Source: Zingiber officinale | Lineage: Eukaryota > Streptophyta > Magnoliopsida > Zingiberales > Zingiberaceae | Direction of reading: 5' to 3' | DNA length: 64,000 nucleotides | Assembly: GCF_018446385.1 (NCBI RefSeq) | Contig: NC_055996.1 | Span: 51,072,365 to 51,136,364, forward strand | Shown here: positions 6,472 to 53,560 of the stretch, in pieces | Layout of the letters: every line of letters starts with the position of its first letter | Position numbering within the stretch: the first letter of the stretch is position 1 | Program-made: the position numbers and the translations under genes | Notes under the pieces: model-generated | The model's input: only the letters and a program-made list of their open reading frames with translations | Database searches by the model: none | What the model was told of the DNA's origin: nothing

Positions 6472-6482
6472 AGTATAAAAGG
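6472..6482 (+). promoter_or_regulatory. TATA box of the Tekay-1 5' LTR
   Basis: The sequence agtataaaagg occurs about 230 bp into the LTR and is repeated at the equivalent place in the 3' LTR (about 23551). It is followed by a pyrimidine-rich stretch and aaaccctag, a usual arrangement for the retrotransposon RNA start. Transcription start itself is inferred. Confidence 0.6.
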
Positions 6483-8440: not shown

Positions 8441-8638
8441 ACGGCCCAGACCCCTCAGCAGCTATAGAGTTCCTCTCAGCTCTACTTCACTCCAAACCAT
8501 GGCTTAACAGTCAAAACAAGTTCAGACTAGATTTTCTGAATCGAGCGAAGTGCAAAAATAACAAAGTCTTTAGAAGGTATGAAAAGAGTAACGTCCGTGC
8601 TCTAAGTTAGGGTTTCAGAAGGGGCGGTCATTACAGTT

Positions 8639-10700: not shown

Positions 10701-10876
10701 ATTCATAAGCCTTGATCAAAATAAGCCATGATTTCAGCATATGTTTATACAAAACAAATCTCACAACCTGCAATTCACACAACCATAAAAAACGAGTACA
10801 CAATCTCCCTAAATATGGTCAAAATAAGCCATAAAAAACCAAAAACATGTACTGGTTCATTCACACAACCTGCAAT

Positions 10877-15062: not shown

Positions 15063-15240
15063 TTTTCTTTTCCCTGCATATAGGAAAATAAATGATGAGA
15101 TAACGGTATATAAAGTCTGTAGTGACAATATAATAAAAGAAGACGTGATACAAATAATAACATTAACACATACGAACAAGTAAAAATAATACTAGTAAAA
15201 ACAATAAATATTAATGCAGATGATATAAAAGTGGAAAACA

Positions 15241-18200
15241 TCATTTTTTCTTGTTTGTTACAAAGAAACCCTCTTTAGAATATCTAAAGTATCCTTCATG
15301 TGTAGGAATACAATGAATATCAACATTATCAATTGGTCGAGCTTCGGGAATTCTGGTCCAAAGATCCTCTTCTCCCTCGTAACATCTATTTGGAACTTGA
15401 AGCACTATTGACCACCCTTTGTTCAGTGGGTCAGCAACATAAAATACTTGTCTAACTTGACTTGCAAGCACAAATTCATCCTTCTGGTGGCCTCGTTTGT
15501 TCAGATTAACTAAGGTGAAGCCACATTCATCATTGTATTGTATTCCTTTGTCATTTGATACCCATGCACACTTGAAAAGAGGAACTTGAAATTGATGATA
15601 GTCTAGTTCCCATATCTCTTCAATAACTCCATAAAAAGTCACATTCTCTAACACGGGATTCTTATCTTTGGCACTACAAACAAGCATCGTGTTGGCAAGT
15701 AGAGAAACACCACTATTTTGACAAACTTTCTCATCATCCCGCTCTTTTGTTTGGTATAAATTGTCATTTATGACATAGCTATCACACTTTAAGACTCGCA
15801 CACGTGGTCCATGGGCCAGCCATCTCAATGACGATGTCATTCCACCATTGCAACTATCGATTTCAGCAGCCACCTGACATGCATTCCTTTTAATTAGTGT
15901 GATCAAAACAATGATTAACAAATATTGTATGTTAGCATCTTCTACATCACCTTTGCACGAAACTAGTCAATGAACCTCTTATTATGAGCATCTTGTATCC
16001 ACCTTGCATCTTTCTGTTTCTTGGGAAACATTGTCTTCAAGAAGGATTTGTGTTCACTGAAGAAGTAAAGTTCTAAAGTTTTATTTTCATGAATACATAT
16101 GGACTGCCAAGTACATATAATTATTAGTTATGCAGTACACTTACATAATGTATGGAGATATTTCTTCTGTATTTTCTAGAACAGTCAAGTGTGCTTGTTG
16201 GAGATCAATTTGTTGGACGATGATTGATGAATTTCTTGCTGAGAAACCAGGAATGCTTGCATTTGGGTCACGTAGTGATTTAGGGACCCCAACAGGATCA
16301 AGGTCATTGAGATATTCTGAACAAAATTCAACTGCTTCTTCTGCTGCATATCTACGAACAATGCAACCTTCCGGATATTTTCGACTGCCTATGTAACTTT
16401 TCAACACCTTCATGCATCTTTCAAATGGGTACATCCATCTGAAGTAGACTGGTCCACATAATTGGACTTCACGAACAAGATGAACTGTTAAGTGGAGCAT
16501 GATATCGAAGAAAGAAGGGGGGAAATACTGCTCCAATAAGCAGAGTGTAACGATCAAGTCAGATTGTAGCTTATCTAACTTGGCTACATCGATAATCTTG
16601 CAATAAATATCTTTGAAGAAGAAGCATAATCTTATGACAGCATATCTAGCATATTTTGGCAGAGAATTACGTATGACTATTGGCAGGAAGTGCTGCATTA
16701 TAACATGAGAATCATGTGATTTCAAGCTACTCAGCTTCATCTCATCCATGCAGACAAGATTCTTCATGTTTGATGAGAAACCTTCCTGAACTTTTATATC
16801 CATTAATGACCTACATACTTGTAATCTCTCATTTTTTGTGAATGAGCATGCTGCAGGAGGTAGATATGTTCTTTTCTCACCAATTTTAGGAGCCAATTGA
16901 GGCCTAATTCCCATCTGAACCATGTCCAACCTAGCTGCCACATTGTCCTTGATTTTTCCCTTGATGTTCATTAAAGTATTAATCAGAGACTCGAAAACGT
17001 TTTTCTCAATGTGCATAACATCGAGACAATGCCTAACATGTAGGTATTTCCAGTATAGAAGATTGAAAAAAATTGACTTCTTCTTCCAACATTTACTGAA
17101 ATTTATAGCTCCAACATACTTTTCTTCTTCAATGTCTTCCACAATATTCTCCGTTGCTTTTTTCCTTATTTTCCCCTTCACACTTGTTTTCTTTCCAAAC
17201 TCACATGTTATGTCTGAAAGCTTGTCAAACAACTTAATTCCAGATAATGGCCTACCTGCTTCACCAAGTTCCTCCATGCCATTAAACTCCTTTATTTGCC
17301 TCCGATATGGATGAAATCGTGGTAGGAATCGTCTATGCCCAGCAAATGACATTTTCTTCCCATTTTGTAAGTGCTTTGCATAAGTATCCTCACCACATAT
17401 TGGGCATGCGTAATAACCATGTGTAGTACATCCACTAAGGTTACCATATGCAGGAAAGTCGTTGATGGTCCATAAAAGAACTGCTTTAAGAGTGAAAACC
17501 TCCCTTCGATAAGCATCATAAACTCCATCAACTCCTTCCCACAATAGCTGCAAATCATCAACCAGAACCTCAAGGTAGACGTCGATATCGTTTCCAGGCT
17601 GTTTCGGCCCTGAAATGAGCATCGTTAACATGATGAATTTCCTTTTCATGCACATGTCTGGAGGCAAATTATATGTGGCCAGCATGATTGGCCAGCAGCT
17701 GTAGTGACTACTAAGATTGCTGTGAGAATTAATTCCATCGGCTGCAAGTGCCAGGCGAATATTTCTTGCCTCACTTCCAAAGTTGGGCCATATATGATCC
17801 ATCAATTTCCATGACGGTGAATCAATTGGATGGCGTAACTGACCAACAACTCTTGTGCTATCTGCATGCCATGTTAAATTTCTGGAAGTTTCTAAAGATT
17901 TAAACATGCGCTTAAATCTTGGTATGGGAGGCAAATACCAAACCACTTTTGCAGGAACACCTTTCTTCTCAACATTTTTCTTGGTTAGCTTCCATCTTGA
18001 TAAGCCACATTTCGGGCAGCTTACGCAGTCTTTATATTGTTTTCTATAAAGGATGCAATCATTGGAACAAGCATGAATCTTTTCATGACTCAAAGCCAAA
18101 CAACTCAACGTCTTCTTTGCTTCATAAATTGACGATGACAGATTGTGGTTATCTGGCAGCATGTCCCCAAAATCTGCTAGTAGATCTGAAAATAGAGCAT

Positions 18201-18669
18201 CACTCATCTCATGTCTTGCTTTGGTATTGTATAGTTTTACAAGTGCACTCAACTTTGTGTAACGTTTGCATCCCTTATACAGTGGCTTCTCTGCTTCCTC
18301 CAAAAACTTCATAAATGCTTCTGGATTTTTTGTATGGTTATCATAGGCTGCCTCACACAAATTAACAGTTTCAAAATCATCATGACAATTATCAGTTGGC
18401 TCTTGGTTGACACTCGAATTTAATCTATCCTTCTCTGCAGACTCGCCATGCCAAATCCAATTCAAATAATTTTTACTGAAACCATTGAAGTAAAGATGCT
18501 CCCGAATCCACATAATCGCTCCCTTTTTAAGATTCATACATTTGCAATAAGGACAATGAATTAAATTGGGGTCGATATGTGGATTCTGCAAACAAGTTCT
18601 AATGAATTGTTCCACACCCTCCTCATACTCTTTGGACCTCCTATCTAAGTAAATCCAGGATTTATCCAT
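15241..18669 (-). CDS. CACTA1 TNPD-type transposase (TNP2 family)
   Basis: Long exon 1 starts at MDKSW (18669) and runs to a GTAAGT donor near 16144. It encodes about 842 residues: a Cys-rich N-terminal association domain (CPYCKCMNLKKG), the TNP2 catalytic region with LALAADGIN, LVDDLQLLW and LLWTINDFPAYGNLSG, and a DUF4218-like part (LPKYARYAVIRLCFFFKDI). Exon 2 (about 16110-15948) encodes KTMFPKKQKDARWIQDAHNK. Exon 3 (from about 15873 to the stop at 15241) is a DUF4216-like domain (FYGVIEEIWELDY). The protein should bind the ends and cut the transposon. A TAG at 15965-15963 in exon 2 stands where relatives usually have Trp (FID-W-F), so the encoded protein may be truncated before DUF4216. 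Confidence 0.85.
15963..15965 (-). other. Nonsense codon in the CACTA1 transposase
   Basis: Read on the minus strand, exon 2 gives KRFID then TAG then FRAK and a GTGATG donor. A TGG-to-TAG change is the simplest origin. Everything upstream in exon 1 is open over about 842 codons, so this is the only clear lesion I see in the transposase gene. The identity of the lost residue is inferred from the family pattern. Confidence 0.6.
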
Positions 18670-19684
18670 TATAGTACAACAGAATCCCAAGAAACTTCTT
18701 CAGAATTATCGTGCTAAAATTATTTACCGCTAGCTCAATGTGTTCTTTGATCAAAACCTGAAGATACTACATATATGTTAAGCAAAAGTTAGAGTAAGAC
18801 TGCAAAAAGGTAGTCAAATTCATATCGAGCACAGTTCCATATTTTATACTCATTCCAACAGCTGTCAATATTTTCTACTCATCATGAAGAAAAATAATGC
18901 GTATTTTGTACAATATGTGGATATATAAAGAACGAAAGCATGGGATGACTCATAAATCTCATGAAGTATAGTCAGTGCTCAATAAAAAACTATATTTGTG
19001 CACCTGAAATGCATTCTTCTACATCAAAAACCAACAATTTTAATTGGTATAAACTTTCACAACAGAAATCAATCCCACAATACACGATCCACAACAACAA
19101 ACCAAATAAAGAACAACCAAAAATAGAAGTATCTACTCCAAGATAGCATCATGAATTATCCCTTTAGGTAATGACCTCGTAAACATAGAGACTGAAAAAA
19201 AAAGCAAAAAAAAATTCCAAACACTTTTCTTTGTTGGAAGAATAGCACCAAACCTACAACAAATTGGAGACCGTCTAAAACATGATTTTGCAAAATAAAG
19301 GAGGAGAAAAAGAAGAAGAATAAGAAAAAGAAATCGAAGGAAAGAAACCTGAACCTCAGCCTTCCGCCAGCTCTGTCAAATTGAAAACATATGGTATATC
19401 TCAAACACTTGCAACCTAAACCCTGCGTAAGAAAGTTCAAGTTGCCAAACCTTATTTTTGGCTGACTGCTACAAACCTTCATCTATGTTGCCTAAGACTC
19501 CAAATCGGAAGCCCTAACGAGGGGGAACGGAGAGGACTGAAATGAAGGGGAAGGAAGAGGAGGTCCAACAACTCAATTTCGGAAGAGGAGCATCGGAAGC
19601 CCTAACCCAAGAAAACGAAAGGAAGTGGGGGGAAATAAAAGTGGTCAGAGTCTCTTTGTAAAAATAAAAGTTAACTCTTTGTAC
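18670..19684. other. CACTA1 region upstream of the transposase gene, no gene seen
   Basis: Upstream non-coding region between the transposase start and the right subterminal repeats. It is AT-rich to 19300, then mixed. I see no conserved domain in any frame. By position it should contain the promoter and any 5' untranslated exon, but no clear TATA box can be assigned. Confidence 0.4.
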
Positions 19685-19926
19685 TATTACTTCGGAGTAA
19701 ACACTAAAAAATGTATTCACGACATTACTACTTCGGTATTTAACAAATTTTCGAAGTAATAACTAATTTCAGTTTAAAGCGAAGCCCGTGTTTTTAAACC
19801 TGAGAATTCTATATTTGTATATACTTCATCGATTTTTGCAGCGAAGTTGCTTATACACTTTTACTTCGTATATTTAAATTGACGAAGTAAATTGTAGCGA
19901 AGTAAAAAGTCATTTTTCACATAGTG
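19685..19926. repeat. CACTA1 right terminal inverted repeat and subterminal repeats
   Basis: Copies of acttcg/cgaagt occur at about 19689, 19732, 19752, 19783, 19824, 19841, 19862, 19883 and 19896, ending in the inverse of CACTATGTGAAAAATGAC at 19926. The array mirrors that at 10125-10700. Confidence 0.9.
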
Positions 19927-19929
19927 ATT

Positions 19930-22900
19930 TTTAATCAATATGCAACTGTGCTATTTGATACTGGGGCAACCCATTCGTTTGTCTCTATAGTATTCGCTGA
20001 AAGAATAGGTATACCACCGGAGATCCTAAGAGGATAATTCTTGATGACACTACCCTCGGGAGAGATAATGACATCTACGCACTGGCTACAAGCTGTGCCA
20101 GTCAAAATTTCAGACAGAGAACTGTTCAGTGATCTGATCTTGCTAAACATGTCTGATTATGATGTTATTTTTGGGATAAACTTCCTGAGCAAGTATGGTG
20201 CTTCCATCGAGTGTCATAAGCGAAGGGTTTTATTCCAACCTAAGGCAGAGTCTAAGTTTGAGTTCATCGAAGATTCAAAGAAGAGAACCCAGAAATTTTT
20301 ATCGGCCCTGAAAGCTCAAAAGATGTTAGCTGATGGATGTGCTGGGTTTCTAACTCATGTGGTTAATACCCAGCAAGAAAGAAATCAAGAGCTAGAGGAA
20401 ATTAGAGTCATGTGTTCCTACCCAGAAGTGTTTCTCGATGGGTTGCCAGGTTTATCGCCGGATAGGGAAATTGAATTTGAGATTGAACTCATCCCTGGTA
20501 CCCATCCAATCTCAAAAATACCCTACCGCATGGCTCCGGCAGAATTGAAAGAACTTTAGGGATAGTTACAGGAGCTACTCGACAAGGGCTTCATTCACCC
20601 TAGTCACTCACCATAGGGATCTCCGATGTTGTTCGTAAAGAAAAAGGACGGGTCCATGCGAATATGTGTGGACCACCGAGCACTGAACAAAGTAACAATC
20701 AAGAACAGGTATCCCTTGCCGAGGATTGATGATCTATTTGATCAGTTAAAGGGAGCCACAGTCTTTTCCAAGATAGACTTGTGGTCTGGATATCATCAAG
20801 TGAAAGTGAGGGCATATAATGTTCCGAAGACGACATTCCGAACGAGGTATGGACACTACGAGTTTATAGTCATGCCTTTTGGAGTGACGAACGCTCTGGC
20901 TACATTTATGGATCTAATAAACAGAGTGTTCAAAGCGTATTTGGATAGGTTTGTAATCGTCTTTATAGACGATATTCTTATATATTCCAAAAGTCAGGAA
21001 GAACATGCTGAACATCTGAAGACGATATTACAGATTTTTCGACAAAGACAGTTGTACGCGAAGTTCTCCAAGTGCGAGTTCTGGCTCGATCATGTGTCCT
21101 TCCTAGGTCACATTATTTCCAAGGATAGGGTCATGGTAGACCCGGCAAAAATAGAAGCTGTGAGTAATTGGAATAGACCCAAGAATGTCAGTGAAATCAG
21201 AAGTTTCCTTGGATTAGCAGGTTATTATAGGAAATTTGTTGAGAACTTCTCAAGGATTGCCTCTCCATTGACAACACTTACCAGAAAGAATAGAAAATTT
21301 GAGTGGATAGAGGATTGTGAGAAGAGTTTCATTGAACTAAAAAGGAGACTGACCAGTGCTCCAATCCTGACTCTTCCAGAAAATGGTGAGAGCTTTGATA
21401 TGTATAGCGATGCTTCTAAATTGGGACTCGGAGCTGTACTGATGCAGATGGCAGAGTCATTGCCTACGCCTCGAGACAACTCAAAGATTATGAGAAGAAC
21501 TATCCCACTCATGACCTTGAGTTAGCAACAGTAGTTTTCGCTCTCAAAGTCTGGAGGCACTACTTATATGGAACTCAGTGCAAGATTTACACAGATCACC
21601 AGAGTCTGAAGTATTTCTTCACTCAGAAAGACCTAAAGATGAGATAATGGAGATGGCTTGAGTTAGTCAAAGACTATGATTATGAAATCCTCTACCATCC
21701 AGGGAAGGCGAACAAGGTGGCAGATGCGCTAAGTAGAAAATCTTGCGCAACTTTATTGTCCTTATCTGCCATGTCCCAACTCCTACGGAAGGAAGTAGTA
21801 AATTTTGGGCTAGAAATTATTACTGGGCAGCTCTCTACTTTGACACTAGTGTCAACCTTGCTTGAAGATATACAGAAAGGGCATGATGAAGATCCTAATA
21901 TTCAGAAGATCAAGCAAAGAATACAAGAAGGAGAAAATGGGGAGTTTTGAATATCAGACCGTGAGATGCTATATTTTGGTAATCGTCTTTATGTCCCTAA
22001 TCAAGAAGAACTGCGAAAGAAAATTCTAGATGAAGCCCATAGAACACCCTATGCAATGCATCCTGGTTCCACCAAGATGTACTAAGATTTAAAGGAATTC
22101 TTCTGGTGGTCTAGAATCAAGAGAGATGTTGCTAGATACATCAGTACCTGTTTGATGTGTCAACGGGTTAAAGCAGAACATCAGAGACCAGGCGGAGTTT
22201 TGCAGCCTATCCAGATCCTAGAGTGGAAGTGGAAGGATATATCTATGGATTTTATAGCAGGACTACCCAGAACTACGAACGGTTATGATGCTATCTGGGT
22301 AATAGTAGATAGATTGACCAAGTCTGCTCATTTCCTAGCAATTAGAACATCCTACTCTATTGAGCAGTTAGCACAATTGTATGTGAAAGAGGTCATCAGA
22401 TTGCATGGAGTTCCCAAAATCATAATTTCTGATAAAGATGGTCGTTTTACTTCACACTTCTAGGAGTGTGTTCAGAGAGCTCTTGGCACTAAGTTACGAA
22501 TCAGCACTACATTTCATCCTCAAACTGAAGGGCAAACAGAACGGGTGAACCAAATTTTGGAGGATATGCTACGGGCTTGTGCCTTTGATTTCAAGGGGAG
22601 CTGGTGTCGATACTTATGCTTAGCAGAAATCATATACAATAATAGTTATCAAGCTACTATCGGAATGACACCCTATGAGGCTCTATATGGGAGGAGATGT
22701 AGATCTCCTATTTGTTGGTATGAAGATGGTGAAAAGGAAGAAATGGGACTCCAGACAGACCTCATCGAAGACACCACCAAAGCTATTCAGAACATTCGCC
22801 AAAGAATAGAAACTGCTAAGAGCCAGCAGAAAAGCTATGCGGATGTGCATCGTAGACCGCTGGAATTTAAGGTTGGGGACTCAGTGTTCCTCAAAGAAGC

Positions 22901-23288
22901 TCATATGAAAGGAGTGATGCGGTTTGGGAAGAAAGGAAAGTTGAGTCCACGATATGTGAGGCCATACTTGATCATCAAAAGAGTTGGCAAGGTAGCTTAT
23001 GAGTTGGAACTACCTCAGGAAATGTTAATTGTTCATAATGTATTTCATGTCTCAATGCTGAAGAAGCATGTTCCCGATACAAACCAAGTGATTGAACCAC
23101 AGACGGTACAAGTTCAAGAGGATCTCAGTTATGAAAGTCGACCTATTCAGATAATAGATCGAGAAGTTAAGAAGCTGAGAAACAAAGAAATACTGTTAGT
23201 AAAAGTGTTGTGGCAAAGTCAACAGTATGAAGAGGCAATATGGGAACGCGAGGATGATATAAGACAGAAGTATCCACAATTATTCTAA
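19930..23288 (+). pseudogene. Tekay-1 pol: protease, reverse transcriptase, RNase H, integrase
   Basis: Protease begins after the CACTA1 insertion with the catalytic motif LFDTGATHSF (about 19948-19977). Reverse transcriptase has [20 protein letters not shown] (from 20629) and catalytic FIDDILIYS (about 20962-20988). RNase H follows with [11 protein letters not shown]. Integrase shows H2C2 zinc-binding residues, MDFIAGLP, IISDKDGRF and an E in TERVNQILEDM (D, D, E triad). The C-terminal part has the VFHVSMLKKH motif and a chromodomain-like end with LVKVLWQ and AIWEREDD. In-frame stops lie at 20035, 20557, 20563, 20614, 21645, 21948, 22083 and 22461, and a 1-bp deletion near 21447 shifts the frame. 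The frame ends at TAA 23286. It is dead as a gene. Confidence 0.92.
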
Positions 23289-23323: not shown

Positions 23324-25717
23324 TGTAACACCCATAAATTTTCTCTATTTAAATAAAGCAAAAAGAAGTAGAAGAAGAGAAAAAAAATAAAAATACAATC
23401 ATAAATGGCCTGGGCTAGGATTGAACCCTAGACCTCTTACTTGAAATTATTTTAAGTAGTCATTAGGTGGTGGTAAAGCATCACATTAGCAATAGGAAAT
23501 AATTTCTTATAAGCAGATTTTGTGGGAGGAGATGTTTCAACTTCCACTTAGTATAAAAGGGGATGGATGAGAGAAAACCCTAGTTTTCATCTTCTCTTCC
23601 TTTCCCTAGCCGAAATTCTCTTCTACCCCCTTTCAAGTTTCGGCCAAGGAACCCTAAGGCTTCAATTCTTAATATTTTCAAGGGGAGAATCTAAGGGGAG
23701 GGTCTCTCCCAAGGAAATAGTACGTGCCGTTCAAGAGAGGATTTTCTTCCCTACACCCTCTATAACAGTAAGATCTAGCGAAAGGATTTAAGTACTTCTC
23801 ACCTGTGGTATAAGTTGCTTCGTCGATGCATGTTGTAGTATGTATCTATGTAAGTTAAAAGAATATTCATGCCATGATATATTTTATGTATGTTAAAGGA
23901 GATAGATGTTATAATTGTAAGATGCCCTCTAAAGTTTGGGATTAAGAGCATGTTTAGAGTATTTGATTTGCTTCCCATTAAGTTTTGGGACTAAGAAGCA
24001 TAATCAAGTGCCCCAAGGTGCTTCCCTATAAGTGTGAGGGATTAAGTGCATACAAGGTATTTGTTGAAATGACAAGTTAGTGCAAGTATAAGAAAGAAGT
24101 ATTAAAAAGAAAGTATTTTACTTTAAGATGGCATGTACTGGACACAAGGTCCATGGGTGGGCTCCTAGATCGCCCCTAGGCCCCTAGATCACCTAGTAGT
24201 ACCTTAATAGGTTCGGGAATAGCTATCTCGGATCTTATTAAGGGTGTACGCAAAGTGGTACAATGTCAGGCCCAAAGCAAGTTGATTATTATTTTCACTA
24301 GTACGTAATATAAAGTTTTCCCAAGTTCATTGTTTATTTAAGTGAAAGCATTCTTAAGTTTGGGAATTAGAGACTATAAAGTGCAGCTTTGATGAACTCT
24401 ATTGTATGGCAAAGTTTATGGTTTTCATTACTTGTTTTCAATATAATCAGGGTTTCATGTTGACATCTCATGATAATCCTATTTAAAAATGTTGATGTTT
24501 GCATGATGAGTCTATTTAAAAATACATGTCATGTACATATTTCTAAATTATGGGTTTTAGTATGAGTAATTATTGAGTGCATGTTTTGTGTTCTTTCAAG
24601 CAGTTTTGTAAAGCATGTTTTCCCTCTTTAATGCATTGTTTTGTGTGTAAAAGGTACTTACTATGCGTTTGCTTATAGATTACTTTTCCTTATACTGCAG
24701 ATAAAGGTAAAGGAAAGCTCGAGTAAGGAGGGGCAGCAGGAACGATATTTGCTGGTGTGTGTGATGGAACAGTGGGAAGTGATCTTGGAACTTACTAGTG
24801 CATGGAATGTGTTAGATTTTGGTACTGATGGACCTATTTTCTTATCCCATTTAGTATAAAAATACTATTAAGAATTGTGTATGATGAAATTGACAGTTTG
24901 TTAGTAATTAGCATGTCAAAGACTCTCCCTAAAGAAATGGAAGAGAACGGTAAGCCAAGAGGGAGTATAAAGGGGAGAACCAACCTCCTTTGTAGTGTTG
25001 TGTGTGACCCCTGCACGGCCCGTGACACGGCCGTGTCGATTCACATGACCCTCACCTGCTCCCTCTCGGCCAGGGTGACATGGTCGTGTGGATTCACATG
25101 GCCACCACCTGCTCCCTCTCGGCTAGGGTGCTACAGTCGTGTGGTTTCACACGGTCGTACACCTCTTCCTGTCAGCCGGAGTGACACAGCCGTGTGGCTT
25201 CACACGACCGCACATTCCTCTTGGTCTCGATCAAGGTGACACGGTCGTGTGAAGCACACAGCCGTTCATTTCTCCTTCTCGGGTAAGATGACACGGCCAT
25301 GTGGTTTCACACGGTCATCCACCCCTTCGTCACAGCCGAGGTGACATGGTCGTGTGGAAGCCACATGGTCGTGCTCTGCTCCAGCAGTGGAGGCCTTACA
25401 CGGTCGTGTGGTACACACGGTCGTGCCCAAACTTGGGTCTGGAAAGGTCACACGACCGGTCATCACCACATGGTCATAGCATGCCCCTTCATGGGTAGGG
25501 CCACAGGGCTGGTTAGGGTCACACGACCCAAACCCCTCAGCATTTATAGAGTTTCTCTCAGCTCTGCTTCACTCCAAACTATGGCTTAACAGTCGAAACA
25601 AGTTCAGACTAGATTTTCTTAATCGAGCGAAGTGCAAAAATAATGAAGTCTTTAGAAGGTATGAAAAGAGTAACGTCCGTGCTCTAAGTTAGGGTTTCAG
25701 AAGGGGCGGTCGTTACA
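23324..25717 (+). repeat. 3' LTR of Tekay-1
   Basis: Same order as the 5' LTR, with scattered substitutions and a 24-bp deletion near 23728. It carries the same CACGGCCGTG array (about 25015-25520) and a TATA box at about 23551. It ends cggtcgttaca, followed by the CCTAG duplication. Confidence 0.92.
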
Positions 25718-38500: not shown

Positions 38501-38986
38501 TGTTGGAAGATCGGTGGTCGGCTTGAAGGGGTCGGGGTTGGATAGCTAGGTCACCCCCAAATCGATTTCTTCTCTACAAGAGGGTTAGTGCATAGCGGAA
38601 ATACAAAAACTAAAGCAATTAGAAACAAATAAGAATACAAACGCTAACACGCTCGATGTAACGTGGTTCGGAGATGATGCTCCTACTCCACGACGTGTCC
38701 TTGAGGTGGACGAGCCCTTGATCCTTCGGTGGATCAGTCCCCAGCACTTTCCGGCCAAAGCTTCTCCTTCTCGGTGGAGCAAACCTCTCACAAAATGATC
38801 TCTTCCTCTTTACAAGATGGATTTTAAATTGGGAGGAAGAGGATTGAACTTGGAAGCTTTGGGCAAGACTAAGAAGGTTTACAATTAGCACCAGTAACCC
38901 TCTTCAAGCCCCAAAACATTCCTTAAATAAGAGGAGAAAGTTGATCACAAATCAACTCAAACCCCGACACCAGTCGACTGGTCCAA

Positions 38987-39310
38987 CACTACAACAAAAT
39001 CGCTCATAGACATCGGTTTTCCACCGGTGTCTATTTGATTTTCGACCGATGTCTATCAAGCCGATGTTAAAAGTCTGTCATTTTAGACATCGAGTTAAAA
39101 CCGGTGTAGTATCACTTAACGACACCGGTCTTCGAATCGGTTATTAACCGGTGTAGTATCACTTAACGACACCGTTTCATCAACGATGTAAAACCGATGT
39201 AATATTGTATGTTAATAACACCAGTTTTGGCAGCGGTAAATGACCGATGTAATATTACTTTATAACACCGGTTTTTACATCGGTGGAAAACCGATGTAAT
39301 ATGTATATTT
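38987..39310. repeat. CACTA2 left subterminal repeats
   Basis: About twelve copies of gacatcgg/ccgatgtc and gacaccgg/ccggtgt in both orientations, several as facing pairs around ttttt or aaaac. The right end (44935-45157) has the same words. Such arrays are the expected binding sites of the element's TNPA-type protein. Confidence 0.88.
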
Positions 39311-39557
39311 TTTAACAGCACAGATTTGATTTTAAAACCGACAATAACAAAAAAAAATACACAAATATTCACAAATTGTACAAATATTCTTCATTCAATA
39401 ATATCCATAAAATACACAAATATTCACAAATTATATAAATAATCTTCTTACAACAATATCCATAAAATACCCAAACATTCTTTTTACATCAAAAGCTAGC
39501 TAATAGATATCAAAATCAAAGTATAACATTCTGTTAACACATCAAGGTACAACTGTC

Positions 39558-39638
39558 TCAAATGTAATCTAGCATGCATTCAGCCCACTCGAACCGCACT
39601 TCATCAATTTCAACTCTGGAGTACTTGAGATTTGTAAA
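39558..39638 (-). pseudogene. Tail exon of a CACTA TNPA/Ulp1-type gene
   Basis: After a tttttacag acceptor, 27 codons end in TGA and contain EIDEVRFEWAECM. The last exon of the CACTA1 gene has [12 protein letters not shown] in the same place and orientation. This shows CACTA2 derives from a coding CACTA element and indicates the transcription direction. The exons that should precede it are not recognised. Confidence 0.7.
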
Positions 39639-40730
39639 CTGTAAAAACACATAGATCCACCATATGTCAAATAACTAAAACAAATGTGTGCATGTATCAA
39701 ATAAAATAGAATACTGAGTTTTTAAAGGCTGCTGTGGAAGATAACGAATATAACATAGAATCTAAAACTTTCATATATGACACTTAGTATATGCTGCTTA
39801 GAATATAACATAGATAATTTGCTCCTTCTAATTCAAGTGTACAGATTGATAAGAACCGACAGCATCATACAACAACTTACTAGGCATGATAATGGTTGAA
39901 CAAAGAAATATGACTACACAACAAATCCAGTGAAGGAAGCATAGAAGAACAAAGCTACCTCTGATGAAGAGATATACTATTTATTGTACTACCTCTGATG
40001 TCATCTTGGTATCCTGAATATCCTGCACTAAGCCCCCTATTTTCTGTGATTTCTGCTACCAACCACAGCAGCAAGGAATGCGGCAAGAAGGCAGCTGCCT
40101 CCTTAGTTCAGCACTCAAAACAACAAGTTAGAGCTTCCTTTTGAACACTCAAACTAGAACACTCAAACAAGTTAGAGTTGATGTGTATTTATCCTTTTTG
40201 TCTTGTCTTTTGATCCAGATATCAGCATCATAGGTGAATTAACTAGAAAACTCTACATGTTTTGCTTCAAATAATCTCTCAACTGTACAACCTTCAGTCA
40301 TTATTATCTTTCTCATGTTTTTTTAAGGTCGACTTGGGGAATCCATCCTTTGACATAAGGCATTACATCCAGGTGCCTAATTGCTTGAGATAACAAGTCG
40401 ATGGCAATAAATACCTACTCCCCAAATGATCATTTGTTCTTTATTGGTTACTACAGTCAGTCATATGGAGCATGGTTCGCATGAGAGCAACGCCCAACTA
40501 TAAAGGCGCACCTTTAAACACTGCATTTGGAAATATTAGGGTAACTGTAACTCTCTTGTAAGCCACCAAAAGTTCTTTTAACAAACTGGACGTGAAGCTG
40601 AGGCATTGATGGGCAAAACTAAGATCAATTGGCCTTTTAACCCCAAGTAAGTAATACCTACAGGAACCCATAGCAGTTAAAAAAAAGTGTAGGCTGACAT
40701 CTGAAGGATTTGCAATTTAAACTAAGAAAA

Positions 40731-40859
40731 TTAGAAAAATTTCTCACTATCACCCAGCTTAAAACCAGGGATACAGACATCTGTAAAGTCAGCATCTTCT
40801 TCCTCAATTAATTTCTTTATTGTTCCAGATGTTGTTTGACATATTAGTGCTTTCCTCAT
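40731..40859 (-). pseudogene. Unidentified exon-like open frame in CACTA2
   Basis: A 42-codon minus-strand frame containing TSGTIKKLIEEEDADFTDVC, ending FKLGDSEKFF and TAA. Its composition is protein-like and unlike the surrounding AT-rich DNA, and it lies just downstream of a DWF5-like exon. I do not recognise the family. It could be part of a fourth captured gene, a retained CACTA exon, or chance. Confidence 0.35.
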
Positions 40860-40909
40860 ATGCTATATTTATCAACAGCTCAAAGAACAGATGTAAAGAT
40901 AAAATTGAC

Positions 40910-43224
40910 CTGTTTGATGCAATATGTGACGGCAAGAACAGCCCAGGACATCATACCAAATCGGCAGTTTGTAAAAACCTTGATGTCAAAGTTTTTGCCG
41001 ATACGAGGATACAGTTCCATGCCCTGCACAAGAAAAAAAAATTGTCCACAAACTGTATAAATTGCAGCTACATTGATAGGAAAAATTAGGCTGAAAAGCA
41101 TTGCCAAGTAATTCATTTGTTCATTATAGAAGGATATTAATACATGAGATACAACTTGCATAATAACAACACATAGCTAGAAAAACTAGCATGAAGAAAG
41201 GCACAAACCAAATGGTTGAGCAAAAGGAAGTCCAACAATATCAACAAGAGGTAAGATCCTCATGTGGTTTTAATGGCAATTATTTAAAAGCAAAGAATAA
41301 CCTATTCCACCTAAGGTTTCCTCTGCCAGGACCTCATATTAGTGAATATACTTCTCCGTGCAAGAAAATTGAACAAGCAGTGTGAGGCAAGTGTTTATTG
41401 TATAGCCAGAAATCAAACTTTACTGATAAAAAGAGGAGAATTTCAATTCTGTCAAGATGCTCTTTTCCCAACAACTTAACATGAATGGAGCTTTAGAGAT
41501 TGAAAAGTTCATGGAACTGCAGAACTAGCTTGAAAAGCTTAAATAGAGACCAGGCAGGAAAGTATTCCAATGCGCCATATTCAAATTGACTTGTGACATC
41601 CCAATTCATTGGGTATTCCTTATAATGAAAGCTAGAATGTGGTTGCCGAAATCAAAGACATCATATTCTAAGCCATGTTTAAAGAGTTTTTACATGTATG
41701 TGATATTATATAAGATCCCATCATCATAGTAAAAATAATCCTATTGTTGCAACAGAAGTACATGCATATGTGTATTATAGTTGGCAGTGAGACCAAGGAT
41801 GTGAGAGAATTTTTTTTCCATGACGGTGAATATATGGCAACATTGAATATTGGTGGGCAAGTGTTTTAGATTTCTAAATAAATCATTTCATAAGATTTCA
41901 CATAATGGAAAAAATACTTGAAGGTTTTTTGTGATTCAGTTGGTTCCACAAGTAGATATGGTTAGAAAATATCCTCTGAACTCTTAAGTCAACATATCTT
42001 GGATCACGAACAAACACATATAGAGTAGGCAATGAAACATTTGAAAATAAAATACTAATGAAGTCACAAATAAGGTTATTCATTTGTACCAAACATAAAT
42101 ATTTAACTAATTTTTTTTAAGGAAATTGCATTTTCCAATGCAATTTGATCTCATGGTACTCCTTTTACGACTAAAACCCTCAACACCAAAACATGTTATA
42201 GCACAATTCCCCATGGAAATATCTAGAGCATTAACTACTAGTCTTGGGTAGTTCTGCTCCCTGGTGTTGGCTAATGATTGAGAGTTAACTATTCAACAAA
42301 ACAAATCACAGAGTGATTTTCCTGTTTAAGTCTGTGATCAAGAGCATATATTACTTTCTATACTAAAAAAGAAAATGAATGAGGCTACATTGAATTTATG
42401 ACATTTGACTTTAGCAAATAGACGTGCTTTTTTAATGTTTGTTGAGGATAAACATGCACAGTTAAGAAGCAAAAGAGAATCAATTGGTTAAAGAGACAAC
42501 CAGAAGAAAGTAAGACTGTTACATATTCTACAAAGTACACTTACATACACAAATATAGTTTAATCTATATGCAGATTGGAGAAATATCATGTAACCATTA
42601 GTACAGAGAATGGAAATGCAAGAATAGAGTGCACCCATGCAAACATAATTGTAATATGTAAAAATAGTGATACATCTGGGAACAAGTAACAGATAAAATC
42701 CTTCACTATCAAATATAGCTAATAAAAGTTTAAGCATTGGCACATAACCTGCCATGATTAGGTAACAGTGATTAAAAAATAAATCAACAAATCCATTGTA
42801 ATATGTTCATTTGTTTTTTTTTTGAGATATTTGCAAGGCCCCTGCATACTCCATAGTATCTCAAATTATCAATCAGATGCATTTATCTGATTATTTTATG
42901 TGCAATCAATCCAGAAAAAAACAATGACACAACAACTCTGCAAATGATGTCTGGTTAAGAAAGCTCACCCAATAAAAATCAATTATGAAGTTCCCTAATG
43001 AACCAGAATCCGAAGAAGATGGTGCCAAATGACCCTTTGGAGAAAAACAATCATCTCAAATTAGGAACAAAGGACAGTAATAACCATAGGAAAAGCTAGA
43101 TTGAAATTTACAGAAGCTCACTTTCAAGTATAACAAAATGCAGAACACTAAGCTTCCCAGAATAAGTGCTGAATAAATTTCTCCCAGGTGATCATACACG
43201 ACTGCTGGGTTGAAGATTCCAAAC
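40910..43224 (-). pseudogene. DWF5: Captured fragment of a sterol delta-7 reductase (DWF5-like) gene, three exons
   Basis: Three minus-strand exons, each with AG acceptor and GT donor and correct phase. Exon a (43224-43122, 103 nt) encodes FGIFNPAVVYDHLGEIYSAL and a hydrophobic segment ending LLYLK. Exon b (43034-42969, 66 nt) encodes GHLAPSSSDSGSLGNFIIDF. Exon c (41023-40910, 114 nt) encodes GMELYPRIGKNFDIKVFTNC followed by MMSWAVLAVTYCIKQ. These are consecutive middle segments of plant 7-dehydrocholesterol reductase, a membrane enzyme of sterol and brassinosteroid synthesis. I recognised the family from memory, without a search. The N- and C-terminal exons are absent, so no active enzyme can result. 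The intron between b and c is about 1.9 kb. Confidence 0.88.
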
Positions 43225-43935
43225 CTTCAAAGATAATTCAAGAAGCACTGGTCATAGTTAAAAGTTAGAAGTATGTTAAAATAAAGATAAATACACATGA
43301 ATTGCCAACCGATGTCAAAAAATGTGCATACATGTAGAGGAAAATAAGAGATGCAACTAGGTGTCTATAAACCACTCATCTAACTCCCTGCAGAGAAACA
43401 AAATCCTACGTATGCACAACAATACGAAAAAGTATGAAATTAAACCATTTAATTACATACTTGAGGTATGAGTTAAACATAGGAGATCAACAAATTTAGC
43501 AATAACAATGGTAATCATCATGGCGACTTATCATTAATACTAACAAAGATTTCCTTTTTCCCTCCACCCCTTACATCTTCAACTCTAATTAATCCAAATA
43601 CTTGAGAGTTTATGCACTTTACTAACAATATTCAGTCTTTGTCTGCATGACTTTATGCCTCTGTATATGCTTTGTGAACCTTGATCACAAGATAGGACTT
43701 TACCATGTGCTATTAAATTTGGAAAAAGTGGCATACTTGTAGCCGTTTAAGTGATATGCTAGTATATAAAATAAAAAAGATTGCCATTACCTTCAAAACT
43801 TACAACAAATAGCAATCAAACCAATCTCCATAGCTTGTGTTTTCCAAAAACAGAAATTGGAAACGAGAAAGAAAAAAAACCACAAATTTATGTCGGAAAC
43901 GAAAATTTGCGGGAGGGAAAGACAGGGAGTTTCAC

Positions 43936-44323
43936 CTCGTCGGATTCCTCCTTCTCCTCCACCTTCTCCTCCTTCTTAGGCTCCTCTGCAGTTGGGGCGC
44001 CGCCCGTGCCGCCGCTACCAGGGGCGGCGACCCCGATGGCAGCCACAGAGCCACCGGAGGGCACGGAAGCGAACTTCTCCCGGCCGGCAGCGATGACTTC
44101 CGTTATGTCCTTGCCCTTGACTTCCGCGAGGAAGTGGTTGATCCTCTTATCCTCTGCCTCCGCTCCCACTACAAGCAAGAAACAAGGATCACCGAAATGA
44201 AACCAAGATAAATATGAGAGGGAAGAGAGTTCGACCTGATTCAAGGATGGATCTGATATCATCGGCGGAGGGGTTGGGGTTGCCGCCGAGGACGGCCAGG
44301 AGATAAGCCGCCACAATTTTCAT
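43936..44323 (-). pseudogene. RPP2: Captured fragment of the 60S acidic ribosomal protein P2 gene
   Basis: Exon 1 (44323-44236, 88 nt) starts with ATG and encodes MKIVAAYLLAVLGGNPNPSA followed by DDIRSILES. Exon 2 (44168-43936, 233 nt) continues in phase (VGAEAEDKRINHFLAEVKGK, then DITEVIAAGREKFASVPSGG) through an Ala/Gly/Pro hinge to EEPKKEEKVEEKEESDE, and stops at a GT donor. Splice signals are intact. The usual short last exon encoding the conserved acidic C-terminal tail was not found nearby. P2 is part of the ribosomal stalk. The 107 codons have no stop, suggesting recent capture or constraint. Confidence 0.93.
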
Positions 44324-44429
44324 CTTCGCTTCGAGATTTGCAGACGACGATGCCGCTGTTGCAAGGTCTCGGACCTCTCGGTGATGAGTGCGTAGAATGA
44401 GGTGGGTCGGCTTAATTCCAATTTGTATC

Positions 44430-44450
44430 TTATCAAAACCCTAGGGTTGG
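44430..44450 (-). promoter_or_regulatory. Telo-box-like motif upstream of the P2 fragment
   Basis: The sequence aaaccctagggtt occurs about 110 bp upstream of the P2 start codon. AAACCCTA motifs are frequent in promoters of plant ribosomal protein genes. It suggests that the capture included the P2 5' region and perhaps promoter activity. Confidence 0.5.
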
Positions 44451-44738
44451 GTCAGCGGAGGGAGGGCAGCGGAATGCAGGAGTAGGGGTGGGAGACGCAG
44501 CGGCGGCGGCTAGGGGAAAGTTGGTCTTGGCCTTGGAACCACGGAACGCGCGAGCGGCGGAGTCGTAGGCCAGAGCGGCAGCCTCGGCCGAGTCGAAGGT
44601 TCCGAGCCACACCCTGACCTTCTTCCAGGGGTCCCTGATCTCGGCCGCGAACCGCCCCCACGGCCGCTTTCGCACGCCGCGGAACCGCGTCTCCGCTACT
44701 GCCGCCGCCGGCTCCACCAGAACTCGGCCTTTCTTCAT
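44433..44738 (-). pseudogene. Captured ERF transcription factor fragment with complete AP2 domain
   Basis: A GC-rich minus-strand frame from MKKGRVL (44738) contains one AP2/ERF domain (44687-44511, 59 residues: [20 protein letters not shown] to KAKTNFPL). It includes the Ala and Asp positions typical of ERF rather than DREB members. After the domain there are only about 25 residues, so the C-terminal regulatory part is missing. The frame is also open upstream to 44807. The end of the frame runs toward the P2 promoter-like sequence, so the junction between the two captures probably lies at 44440-44500. Confidence 0.88.
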
Positions 44739-44934
44739 CTGGCCAACAGATCGACGGAATGAAAAGGAACAAAAGAAGGGGGAAGAGGGAGCGAGAAATG
44801 GGATCAAAGGAAGAGGAGTGCTAATTTCGCCATGTCGAATTGTTCAAAATTGGGGAGATAAATTGGCTGGTTGCTTCATCCAAGGCGAGGAGAAACCCAA
44901 AAGAAAGGGCGCTAAGAAAGTCCGCCAGAATTTT

Positions 44935-45157
44935 GGTTCATAGACACCAGTTTTAAAAACCGCGGTTAAAATCGGTGTCTATTAATGAAAAAAAGGCGCT
45001 CATAGACATCGGCTAAAAAAACCGATGTCTATGAGCGAAAATCTGCGCTCATAGACACCGGTTTTTGGAAAAACCGGTGTAAAATACTCAAAGACATCGG
45101 TTTTTGCTTAAAACTGTTGTTGTTCCACTGATGTCTATGAGGGTTTTTCTTGTAGTG
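44935..45157. repeat. CACTA2 right subterminal repeats and terminal inverted repeat
   Basis: Copies of agacacc-gg-tttt and agacatcgg occur at about 44942, 44972, 45005, 45024, 45053, 45094 and 45133 in both orientations, ending at the CACTA terminus. Matches the left end. Confidence 0.88.
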
Positions 45158-45164
45158 CAAGCAC

Positions 45165-45380
45165 CAGTCGACTGGTCCAAGCACCAGTCGACTAGTGTGC
45201 CGTTGGACCCAGCCAACGGCTCTCTGCAGAAAGTCAAATTCTGCCAACGGCTATGTACTAGTCGATTGGTCTCAGGACCAGTCGACTGGTCCCCGTAGCC
45301 GACAAGCACAGAATGCTTCTGTGCATTCTGTGAAGCTGGATCAGTCGACTGGTCCTATTACCATTCAACTGGTCCCAATA
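45165..45380. repeat. CCAGTCGACTGG palindrome array in the copia-3 left LTR
   Basis: Copies of ccagtcgactggt and variants (ccagtcgactagt, tagtcgattggt, cagtcgactggt) lie at about 45165, 45184, 45260, 45279, 45339 and 45363; one more precedes CACTA2 at 38970. The right LTR carries the series at 52980-53192. The core is a perfect 12-bp palindrome. Confidence 0.88.
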
Positions 45381-45739
45381 CATTCACTCCTCTCATCCTT
45401 TCCGGAGTCGCCTTTGAAGTCCTCTTCCTCGGCCTTCGTCCCTCAGATGCACCCGAGCCCGCGGCCCCTCTCCATGCCATCCTTCACGCTACCTTGAAGT
45501 CCACTTCCCTCGACTCCACTCCATTGCTCCTCGTCCAGCGGTCCCTCGGATGTCTTCCACACCATCCTTCATCGACTCAACGATCCGAGCCCTTGGATGA
45601 GCTTCCCACACCTAGCCGCACCAACTTCCTCATGTGTTTCACCAAGTCCTGCAAGACTCAAATACATATCAAATACATATGAAAGCCTAACTTAAACTCT
45701 TTGACACACACATCAAAACCTAGGTCGATTGCACCAACA

Positions 45740-46432: not shown

Positions 46433-47509
46433 TGTAACGCCCGCCCTCCCTGCTAACCCTAAGGGACGGGGCTACGATACTCTATGTACAAATTTTTCTC
46501 TTTTTTTTTTTAAAACAGCGGAAGACTTAAAATAATTCTCTTAGTTTAATAAAAACTTTTCTTTTGTTTTCCCTTTCATCAAATCCGAACTACACTACCA
46601 TGGCCTCAATAACATGATATCAAAATTAGTAGAAACATAACATCAAGTCACACATACGGTACTACAATTCATGATACCAAAGCATAGTTCTTTAAAAGTT
46701 TTTTTTTTAAAGCAGGTTCTTATTTGGTTGCCTAGCCACTGCCACACACATCTCCTTGCCTCTCCTGCTGCTCCTCTAGCTCATCCAGCTTTTTCCTTTA
46801 TCTGTGGTACAAGGACAGTAAGCTGTGAGCACTCATAGCTCAGTAAGTTCCTTTCCTACTCACTAAAACCGAAAATCATAGTATAATCAAAGAATGTCTC
46901 AACATGGCATCATTTCAACTAGTCATGACATAATGTAACATACTCTTTTAAGCATATCATGCAACATGAAGAAATCATAACTAGTCATGGCATATCATAG
47001 CGTAAAGCATAGCATGAAGCATAACATAATCGTATCTAATCATGGCATATCGTCATAAGGAGTCATGGCATATCCTACACATGGGCATATCATGGAACAT
47101 AACATAATCATATCTAACCATGGCATATCATAAATCATCATAAGGTATATGCAATATGATTTTTAAAAACATGTATCCGAAAAACATGTGTATGTCTCAT
47201 GATCTTTAAAACCATTTCTTCTTACATATATACTTGAACATAATCTCAACTTAAAGGGGATCCCGGCTATGTACCACTTACATATTGCGCGCAACCTATG
47301 TAGGTCCAAGGTAGCAAGTCTTGAACCCTACAAGGTAACATACTAGGCCCGAGTCTTACTCCATCGACCTAGGGGCACTTAGGAGGCCATCCCTAACGAG
47401 GCCCGAATCTTATTCCATCGACCCCGGGGCACTTATGGAGCCCACCCTTGGTACAAGCCATATAAAGTAAAGTACATGTCATACTTATACATATCATACA
47501 TCATAAAAG

Positions 47510-47775
47510 CATGCATCACTTAGGCACACATCCTATCATAAAAGTATGCATCACTTAGGCATACATCATGTCATAAAAGTATGCATCACTTAGGCATACA
47601 TCATGTCATAAAGGTATGCATCACTTAGGCATACATCATGTCATAAAAGTATGCATCACTTAGGCATACATCATATCATAAAGGTATGCATCACTTAGGC
47701 ATACATCATGTCATAAAGGTATGCATCACTTAGGCATACATCATATCATAACAATATGCATCACTTAGGCATAGA
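47510..47775. repeat. 35-bp tandem repeat in the solo LTR
   Basis: Seven to eight copies of a 35-bp unit beginning atgcatcacttaggcatac, with few differences (aaaagt or aaggt, atgt or atat). Less regular units with catgcata and aaccacatatcat follow to about 48060. Confidence 0.92.
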
Positions 47776-48129
47776 TCATAAAAACATGCATATCTTAAGC
47801 ATAAAGCATATCATCAAGCATGCATAATTTAACCACATAGCATATCATGAAAGCATGCATATTTTAAGCACTAAACATAGCATCAAAGCATGCATAATTT
47901 AACCACATATCATAACATAAGCATGCATAATTTAACCACATATCATAACATAAGAATGCATATTTTCAGCTCATATCATATCATCAAAGCATGTAAAATT
48001 TACCCACATATCATAACGTAAAGCATGCATATTTTGAACTCATATCATATCGTAGAAATTCTCATCTTGTATAGCTCACAAGCATACATGTCTAAGCATA
48101 AAAGTGTATCATGTGCTCATCCAATCATA

Positions 48130-51470: not shown

Positions 51471-52454
51471 TCATCCCATGTCGCCTTTAGATTTTTTAAC
51501 TTTCTTCCCCTTTTCTTTTATCTTTTTCTTTTCTTCCTTCTTCTTCAATAGGGGGCATTCATCTCTTATGTGTCCCTCTCCTTGGCAATTGTAGCAAATG
51601 ATCTTCCTTGTCCTACTTTTTCTTCTTGAGCTTTTCCTAGCATGGGATTTGTTAGATGAAAATTTTTTAAAAGCTCTTCTCATTTTTCTTACCATATACG
51701 CCTCTTGGTCGCTATTCATTGAGGCGCTTGATTCTTCGGAGTCGAATGATGATGGGGATGAAGACTTCTTCTTCTTACCCTTTCCCTTGTTTGCCACAAG
51801 AGCTACTCCTCTTGATCTATTTGCTTCTCCTTCTAATCCTTCAACCCTTGTTTCATGAAGCTCCATTGTTGAGAAGAATTCATCTAGAGAGCTCTTCTCT
51901 AGATCCTTTGAAATGTAGAATGAATCGACAATGGAGCTCCATGTTGAGGTTCTTGGGAAAGCATTGATGGCTTTCATTATGATGTCTCGGTTGGAGAGTT
52001 TCTCACCTACACTTGTTAGTCCACTTAAAATTTTTTTAATTTTAGCATGAAGTGTAGATACCTTATCTCCCTTCTCAAGCTTTACATTGTTGAGTTGAGT
52101 TCGGAGAAGATCTCTTCTTGCTAATTTAGCCTCCGATGTGCCTTCATGAAGCTCCACTAGCTTTTCCCATAACTCCTTGGCGCTTGAGTAGGTTCCCACC
52201 CGTGTTACTTCTTGTTGGGGAAGAACATTTAGTAGATGATGGATGGCTTTCGAATTCGCTAAATGTTCTTCCTTTTGCTTCTTGCTCCACCTTGTTTTCT
52301 CAAGTATCTTATTGTCTTGATCCCTAGGCACTTCGAAACCATTTTCCATGATTAGCATAATATCAAAATTAGTTTCGAAGAATACCTCCATTCTCTTCTT
52401 CCACCAAGAGAAGTCCCCTTCGAATTTGGGTGGATGAATGTTTGAGCCGGCCAT
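51471..52454 (-). CDS. copia-3 gag (Sirevirus-type nucleocapsid protein)
   Basis: A 327-codon frame begins MAGSNIHPPKFEGDFSWWKK. It contains the DUF4219-like start, the UBN2 capsid-like domain (about residues 60-200, ELWEKLVELHEGTSEAKLAR, INAFPRTSTWSSIVDSFYIS) and a CCHC zinc knuckle CYNCQGEGHIRDECP (about residues 287-301), then a Lys-rich tail. The ATG lies about 50 bp inside the primer-binding site. It would package RNA in virus-like particles. The frame is open but ends in a probable frameshift (KSKGDMG, stop) before the acidic region. Confidence 0.88.
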   Translation of the reverse strand: MAGSNIHPPKFEGDFSWWKKRMEVFFETNFDIMLIMENGFEVPRDQDNKILEKTRWSKKQKEEHLANSKAIHHLLNVLPQQEVTRVGTYSSAKELWEKLVELHEGTSEAKLARRDLLRTQLNNVKLEKGDKVSTLHAKIKKILSGLTSVGEKLSNRDIIMKAINAFPRTSTWSSIVDSFYISKDLEKSSLDEFFSTMELHETRVEGLEGEANRSRGVALVANKGKGKKKKSSSPSSFDSEESSASMNSDQEAYMVRKMRRAFKKFSSNKSHARKSSRRKSRTRKIICYNCQGEGHIRDECPLLKKKEEKKKIKEKGKKVKKSKGDMG

Positions 52455-52501
52455 TTGATGATGTGCTCTTCTCGGTGATTAGTCCGTTGAAGGGCAACCT
52501 T

Positions 52502-52513
52502 GCTCTGATACCA
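52502..52513 (-). other. Primer-binding site of copia-3
   Basis: On the minus strand TGGTATCAGAGC, a perfect initiator-Met tRNA site, 2 bp from the LTR end. Confidence 0.95.
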
Positions 52514-52515
52514 CT

Positions 52516-53555
52516 TGTTGGAAGATCGGTGGCCGGCTTGAAGGGGGTTGGATAGCTAGGCCACCCCCAAATCGATTTCTTCTCTACAAGAGGGTCAGTG
52601 CACAGCAGAAATACAAAAAGTAAAGCAATTAGAAACAAATAAGAATACAAACGATAACACGCTCGGTGTAGCGTGGTTCGGAGATGATGCTCCTACTCCA
52701 CGACGTGACCTTGAGGTGGACGAGCCCTTGATCCTTCGGTGGATCAGTCCCCGGCACTCTCCGGCCAAAGCTTCTCATTCTCGGTGGAGCAAACCTCTCA
52801 CAAAATGATCTCTTCCTCTTTACGAGTTGGAGTTTAGATTGGGAGGAAGAGGATTGAACTTGGAAGCTTTGGACAAGACTAAGAAGGTTTACAATTAGCA
52901 CCAGTAACCCTCTTCAAGCCCCAAAGTATTCCTTAAATAAGAGGAGAGAGTTGATCATAAATCAACTCAAACCCTGACACCAGTCGACTGATCCAAGCAC
53001 CAGTCGACTGGTGTGCCGTTGGACCCAGCCAACGGCTCTCTGTAGAAAGTCAAATTTTGCCAACGGCTATGTACCAGTCGATTGGTCTCAGGACCAGTCG
53101 ACTGGTCCCCGTAGCCGACAAGCACAGAATGCTTCTGTGCATTCTGTGAAGCTGGATCAGTTGACTGGTCCCATTACCAGTCGACTGGTCCCAGTACATT
53201 CACTCCTCTCATCCTTTCCGGAGTCGCCTTTGAAGTCCTCTTCCTCGGCCTTCGTCCCTCAGATGCACCCAAGCCCGCGGCTCCTCTCCGTGTCATCCTT
53301 CACGCTGCCTTGAAGTCCACTTCCCTCGGCTCCACTCCATTGCTCCTCGTTCAGCGGTCCCTCGGATGTCTTCCACACCATCCTTCACCGACTCAACGAT
53401 CCGAGCCCTTGGATGAGCTTCCCACACCTGGCCGCACCAAGTTCTTCATGTGTTTCACCAAGTCCTGCAAGACTCAAACACATATCAAATACATATGAAA
53501 GTCTAACTTAAACTCTTTGACACACACATCAAAACCTAGGTCGATTGCACCAACA
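52516..53555 (-). repeat. 5' LTR of copia-3
   Basis: 1,040 bp, very similar to the left LTR. On the minus strand it contains the CCAGTCGACTGG array (53192-52980), followed about 35 bp later by a TATA-like ttatttaagg (52942-52933), then the leader. It ends next to ATACA (53556-53560). Confidence 0.93.
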
Positions 53556-53560
53556 ATACA

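Follow-up and report, generated by a model that had tools for sequence, protein, structure and literature searches.

A ginger CACTA element carrying pieces of three host genes, inserted into a long terminal repeat of a Copia retrotransposon

CACTA transposons that carry pieces of several genes and take part in chimeric splicing are already published, as excerpts of two papers attest (PMC1947982; PMC8903248). In the first (Zabala and Vodkin 2007), the 5.7-kb soybean CACTA element Tgm-Express1 of the wp allele contributes five host fragments that are spliced into chimeric RNAs, recovered as cDNAs; in the second, the portion on maize describes Pack-CACTAs that carry pieces of several loci (Gisby and Catoni 2022). 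Here we describe a comparable element of ginger, Zingiber officinale, found in a stretch of 64,000 nucleotides of contig NC_055996.1 (the window; all positions below are counted from its first letter). The element, CACTA2, is very probably a Pack-CACTA that holds a fusion of pieces from an ERF gene, the gene of ribosomal protein P2 and the sterol delta-7 reductase gene DWF5, was copied as a unit and later landed in a long terminal repeat (LTR) of a Copia retrotransposon.

Like Tgm-Express1, CACTA2 has CACTA ends that enclose several unrelated host fragments with introns. According to the excerpted account, however, Tgm-Express1 carries five fragments and lies in the intron of an active gene, whereas CACTA2 carries pieces of three genes together with a tail exon, lies in an LTR and comes with many related ginger gene models. 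With the Arabidopsis and maize Pack-CACTAs, as partly described in PMC8903248, it shares its non-autonomous nature and its captured coding DNA, but differs from them in its host and in that one multi-gene fusion has seemingly spread as a single block and been taken for genes in annotation. Uptake and multiplication of host fragments are likewise reported, in an excerpt of PMC13317346, for cereal Pack-MULEs and gene-carrying Helitrons, which belong to other superfamilies, whereas the terminal inverted repeats, target site duplication and ends of CACTA2 are those of CACTA. We found no report of this ginger family among the papers listed in our literature searches, and the word CACTA does not occur in the main texts of two ginger genome papers.

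CACTA2 occupies 6171 bp (38987-45157, minus strand) and is delimited by its inverted repeats, its target site duplication and an empty site described below. Its termini read CACTACAAC...TTGTAGTG, and the inverted arms (pair I1) are 31 nt long and 87% complementary, the left one, starting with CACTACAACAAAAT, at 38987-39017 on the plus strand and the right one at 45127-45157 on the minus strand. A 3-bp duplication, CAA, stands on both sides (38984-38986 and 45158-45160). Near both ends there are repeats of ACCGGTGT and ACCGATGT units, each in two orientations: the left set covers 39010-39310 (repeat families D2, D3 and D5, inverted pairs I8 and I10, and tandem rows) and the right set 44930-45141 (families D6, D7, D10 and D11, pairs I4, I6 and I9). 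The clean ends, the duplication and the subterminal repeats claimed in a first-pass annotation made from the sequence were thus all recovered, and CACTA...TAGTG inverted ends, a 3-bp duplication and bidirectional subterminal repeats together place the element in the CACTA superfamily. It has no transposase of its own and carries coding sequence taken from host genes, as is characteristic of Pack-CACTAs. All coding pieces lie on the minus strand, and we therefore take the right end as the 5' end. The longest stop-to-stop frame within the element has 143 codons; ten of the longer unassigned frames, out of 124 frames listed for the element, gave no Pfam match, nor did four further unassigned minus-strand stretches, one of which was a frame with its stops written as X. 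Scans of the whole window for tRNA genes and Rfam families returned no matches, and the exact left-end pattern had no match among viral contigs, which is uninformative for a plant element.

The insertion itself can be read from the surrounding DNA. CACTA2 splits the left (3') LTR of a Copia retrotransposon (38501-45739, minus strand), which is recognized by alignment with its right (5') LTR (52516-53555, minus strand; 1040 aligned positions) and by a copia-type gag domain directly inside the latter (PF14223, E-value 1.3e-16, 51471-52475, minus strand); ATACA is found on the outer side of each LTR. When the two flanks of CACTA2 were joined by script, they aligned over 1070 bases at 93% identity with positions 52513-53557, where a single CAA occupies the site. 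CACTA2 has therefore landed by transposition in the 3' LTR, and it was inserted after the Copia element, since the other LTR keeps the empty site. The LTRs themselves contain palindromic ACCAGTCGACTGGT units in repeated copies (38968-38982, 45163-45400 and 53073-53197) and differ by one such 20-bp unit at the insertion site, and a tandem array of 35-bp repeats is found elsewhere in the Copia element (47489-48051).

The two LTRs differ at 45 of the 1040 aligned positions (37 transitions and 8 transversions), a Kimura two-parameter distance of 0.0449. At 1.3e-8 substitutions per site per year, the grass rate, this corresponds to 1.7 million years (Myr), and at 6.5e-9 per site per year, to 3.5 Myr; the slower value is the one given in an excerpt of a ginger genome paper (PMC8342499). 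Under these assumed rates the LTR divergence would set an upper bound of about 1.7-3.5 Myr on the age of the CACTA2 insertion.

The cargo begins near the right end with a truncated ERF frame of 101 amino acids (44433-44738, minus strand, as are all the following pieces), in which the AP2 domain is complete (PF00847, E-value 8.4e-13) and which its own TGA closes where the P2 leader starts. In a longer relative from Ensete (P0128), the missing C-terminal part holds a motif that we take to be of the EAR type. Exons 1 and 2 of P2 follow at 44236-44323 and 43936-44168 and are supported by Pfam (Ribosomal_60s, PF00428, 7.8e-17), by a best PDB match to chain 4v7e_Cs (4.1e-35) and by their frame; intron 1 interrupts a codon after its first base, and exon 2, which ends in EESDE, closes in phase 0. 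The last exon of P2, which in the intact protein of ginger (P0007) encodes DMGFSLFD, is absent, and unspliced exon 2 reads on as VKLPVFPSRKFSFPT up to a stop at 43888-43890. Telo boxes play a role in ribosomal-protein promoters, and a telo-box-like AACCCTA at 44442-44448, 125 nt upstream of the P2 ATG, is a candidate for such an element. The DWF5 piece comprises three exons with their introns between 43224 and 40910, namely D1 (43122-43224, out of frame after P2 exon 2), D2 (42969-43034, phase 0) and D3 (40910-41023, phase 0), which together match ERG4_ERG24 (PF01222, 3.3e-16) and align in a tblastn comparison with the ginger enzyme P0246. In this way three of the four cargo queries scored above the Pfam cut-off, each with the identity proposed for it at first reading, and the translated searches returned P2, AP2/ERF and 7-dehydrocholesterol reductase proteins.

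The fourth piece is a tail exon (39558-39638, phase 0, ending in TGA), whose 26-residue peptide has no Pfam match. It resembles the last exon, near 10924, of a Ulp1-like gene in a second CACTA element of the window, CACTA1: the alignment scores 57, none of 20000 shuffles did as well, and the second-best window peptide scores 37. To judge from this resemblance, the 3' end of a CACTA transcription unit has probably survived in CACTA2, with the cargo oriented the same way. The order ERF, P2, DWF5-like, CACTA tail exon proposed by the first-pass annotation holds, all on the minus strand and with GT and AG at every proposed splice, and both profile and protein searches support its view of a Pack-CACTA with three host gene pieces in one orientation.

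CACTA1 has both of its ends (10125-19926; CACTATGTGAAAA, target site duplication ATT) and encodes an 852-residue tnp2 transposase frame (PF02992, 1.7e-84) in addition to the Ulp1-like gene; it is possibly autonomous. One of four Ulp1-like peptides, upstream of the last exon, exceeded the Pfam cut-off (Peptidase_C48, 4.3e-05), and the other three, including the last exon, did not match. The two elements have in common CACTA ends, a 3-bp duplication and the same type of tail exon, but CACTA2 lacks a transposase, and the terminal and subterminal sequences differ; CACTA1 was for this difference in ends dropped as the direct autonomous partner of CACTA2. A direct repeat of 2.4 kb at 92% identity flanks CACTA1 (6245-8635 and 23324-25717), with frames between the copies that appear gag/pol-like by eye (8898-9944 and 20038-23288); these repeats look like the LTRs of a Gypsy-type retrotransposon that CACTA1 entered.

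The first-pass annotation had stated that the exon phases agree, which applies to some of the splicing routes. Since P2 exon 2 ends in phase 0 and D1 requires two preceding bases, a transcript that includes every exon would stop ten residues past P2, after VWNLQPSSRV (117 amino acids in total). Routes that skip D1 are open as far as the stop of the tail exon: P2-D2-D3-tail (193 amino acids), P2-D3-tail (171), P2-D2-tail (155) and P2-tail (133). The ERF part is not fused in frame to P2, as its own frame ends at the TGA at 44433-44435. It is also correct that none of the fragments contains a stop, but this is weak evidence, because DNA evolving neutrally would be stop-free with a probability of 0.62 at a per-lineage divergence of 0.0225 and of 0.38 at 0.045. 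We accordingly dropped intact frames as a sign of selection, such an outcome being expected by chance at this age; by the same calculation, the intact frames of the window copy are no counter-evidence to relaxed constraint.

Protein searches point to a family of related copies. Each search is represented by its 120 best matches, out of 1955 for P2+D2+D3+tail, 1029 for the ERF frame and 453 for the DWF5 part. Truncated or fused P2 proteins from ginger form at least eight clusters with 41 member sequences among the matches listed (P0004 with 30, P0006 with 4, P0005 with 2, and P0001, P0003, P0008, P0009 and P0011 with 1 each), and truncated ERF proteins at least seven (P0121-P0127) with 33. In six of the eight P2 representatives the sequence terminates in VKLPVFPSRKFSFPT, that is, it runs from P2 exon 2 into the next intron as in the window, and all seven ERF representatives end in TLGF, the peptide of the junction between ERF and the P2 leader. 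The ERF representatives are 94-99% identical to the window copy and the truncated P2 representatives 87-97%, and several of these proteins are annotated as 'P2B-like' or 'ERF 3-like'. The eight P2 representatives lie on contigs of seven distinct sizes and the seven ERF ones on contigs of six, possibly from more than one assembly. The common junctions suggest that the ginger truncated P2 and ERF proteins derive from CACTA elements; being common to the representatives, the ERF/P2-leader junction would be older than the spread. The same junctions already refute a chance mixture of transposon DNA and gene-like matches with no true capture, which the Pfam E-values of 8e-13 to 8e-17 also oppose and to which we assign a practically negligible probability.

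Some members bear on the chimeric transcript that the first-pass annotation had thought possible. Two ginger models, which are annotations and not reads, join P2 to DWF5: in P0003, P2 exon 2 is joined directly and in frame to D3, and in P0001 (ZIOFF_062833, 321 amino acids) P2 is followed by the beginning of D1, some 115 residues absent from the window, D3 and a further tail. The inserted residues 129-242 of P0001 belong to no Pfam family and may represent a fourth gene captured by another copy of the family or an artefact of annotation. P0009 is a single model with the ERF region, in another frame, followed by P2. An apparent P2-DWF5 fusion from Canna (P0002) was dropped, as it proved to be two tandem P2 copies, and both Curcuma longa P2 proteins among the matches listed (P0013 and P0014) are intact. 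In the DWF5 search the sole ginger protein listed is the 434-residue enzyme P0246, with no chimeras among the matches. The abundance of ginger proteins that resemble the parents might fit an element that acts mainly as a source of small RNAs silencing P2, DWF5 or ERF; the cargo, however, lies in one orientation, and the inverted pairs shown, 25 of 66, include no long hairpin of a captured piece, and we regard this role as very unlikely.

We considered whether the three pieces were ordinary neighbours in the genome, taken up as one stretch in a single event. Their uniform orientation and the position of the P2 ATG, at most 110 nt after the ERF stop, would fit such an origin. Intact ginger P2 (P0007, with its last exon) and DWF5 (P0246) are recorded, however, on contigs that differ in length (165.9 and 88.7 Mb), which speaks against adjacent donors as far as protein records go, although P0246 may not be the direct donor; and an ERF without its C-terminal part next to a P2 without its last exon is better explained by junctions of fragments than by intact neighbours. 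A single capture thus appears very unlikely. Adjacency of the donors, an objection that the first-pass annotation had raised against itself, is in this way opposed for P2 and DWF5, while no full-length ginger ERF donor was identified in a search whose candidates were limited to 1.75 times the query length, so that a longer ginger ERF could not appear. By eye, P0246 differs from the DWF5 fragment at 6 of 94 shared residues, and at three of these, where P0246 has E, C and I, the fragment shows the residue of Ensete P0242; P0246 was therefore dropped as the direct donor, a related allele or paralogue being the likelier source.

It could also be argued that the cargo has been domesticated, with the truncated P2 pairing with P1 as a decoy of the ribosomal stalk or with an ERF that has lost its repressor motif competing for DNA sites. 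The N-domain of P2 is the part that pairs with P1, and nothing is lacking from the portion that matches the N-domain in structure 2lbf (residues 1-69), the last exon being the only one lost; similarly, the ERF piece has a full AP2 domain but not the EAR-type motif seen in P0128. Many ginger models keep open frames, but annotated models are biased towards these, and at this age chance would account for them. We compared the copies at positions conserved in at least 95% of controls (42 AP2 positions in 113 non-ginger ERFs and 53 P2 positions in 109 controls), where the controls are best matches, hence conserved by choice, and the cluster representatives are possibly atypical. At the AP2 positions the representatives P0121-P0127 have 1, 2, 2, 3, 3, 4 and 0 changes, respectively (mean 2.1, six of seven changed), against a mean of 0.27 in the controls, 101 of which have none and 12 some, one of them with 15; the window copy has none. 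All eight truncated P2 representatives are changed at the P2 positions, with 1-6 changes each (mean 2.5, gaps being counted as changes in two of them) and one in the window copy. The P2 test is weaker than the ERF test, because 54 of the 109 controls are changed too (mean 0.61, none in 55) and the two isoforms of intact ginger P2 have two changes each. By these comparisons the ERF part seems to be under relaxed constraint, with a weak sign of the same for P2, and the ERF changes suggest that the cargo is not under selection. We consequently give domestication little credence. A stronger version, according to which dozens of expressed in-frame P2 proteins, lacking the factor-binding motif or fused to DWF5, join the stalk with P1, alter translation and constitute a dosage-variable component of the ribosome, strikes us as a long shot.

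The reading that we prefer is thus a Pack-CACTA with a three-gene fusion, and its history may be reconstructed as follows. In an ancestral CACTA element the two ends and the final Ulp1-like exon would have persisted, while the transposase and the bulk of the Ulp1-like gene disappeared; the gap would then have been filled by the ERF piece, the P2 piece with its leader and the DWF5 piece with its introns, all in the sense of element transcription. Capture probably proceeded through two neighbouring elements with complementary deletions, which form a hybrid enclosing chromosomal DNA, a published route according to an excerpt of PMC13317346, and may have been repeated for unlinked genes. The transposase of a related autonomous CACTA, acting in trans, would subsequently have multiplied the fusion as one block. 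Most probably, some copies would be transcribed, from the remnant of the P2 promoter with its AACCCTA box or from the region upstream of ERF, and variably spliced, as cDNAs show for Tgm-Express1; the products, if any, would be a P2 that lacks the C-terminal motif or short fusions of P2 with DWF5, with no selected function. The order of captures, mobilization in trans and transcription are the conjectural steps of this scheme. Two observations weigh against it: no autonomous partner with the ends of CACTA2 was seen in the window, where those of CACTA1 differ, and the member sequences of the protein clusters are not equivalent to loci, as they may include both haplotypes or several annotations.

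CACTA2 provides a clear and datable case of a three-gene fusion that was formed inside a CACTA element and has apparently spread. Its main contribution concerns annotation, as the cargo of this CACTA family apparently makes up a sizeable group of ginger gene models. If, as suggested, a considerable share of the ginger proteins named 'P2B-like' and 'ERF 3-like' are transposon cargo, gene-family counts and studies of expression would be distorted by them. The ginger AP2/ERF survey seems to omit the copies of 101-102 amino acids, since its smallest member has 117, according to an excerpt of PMC8620233. Should the P2 copies be translated, ginger would offer a test case for variation of the ribosomal stalk through transposon cargo.

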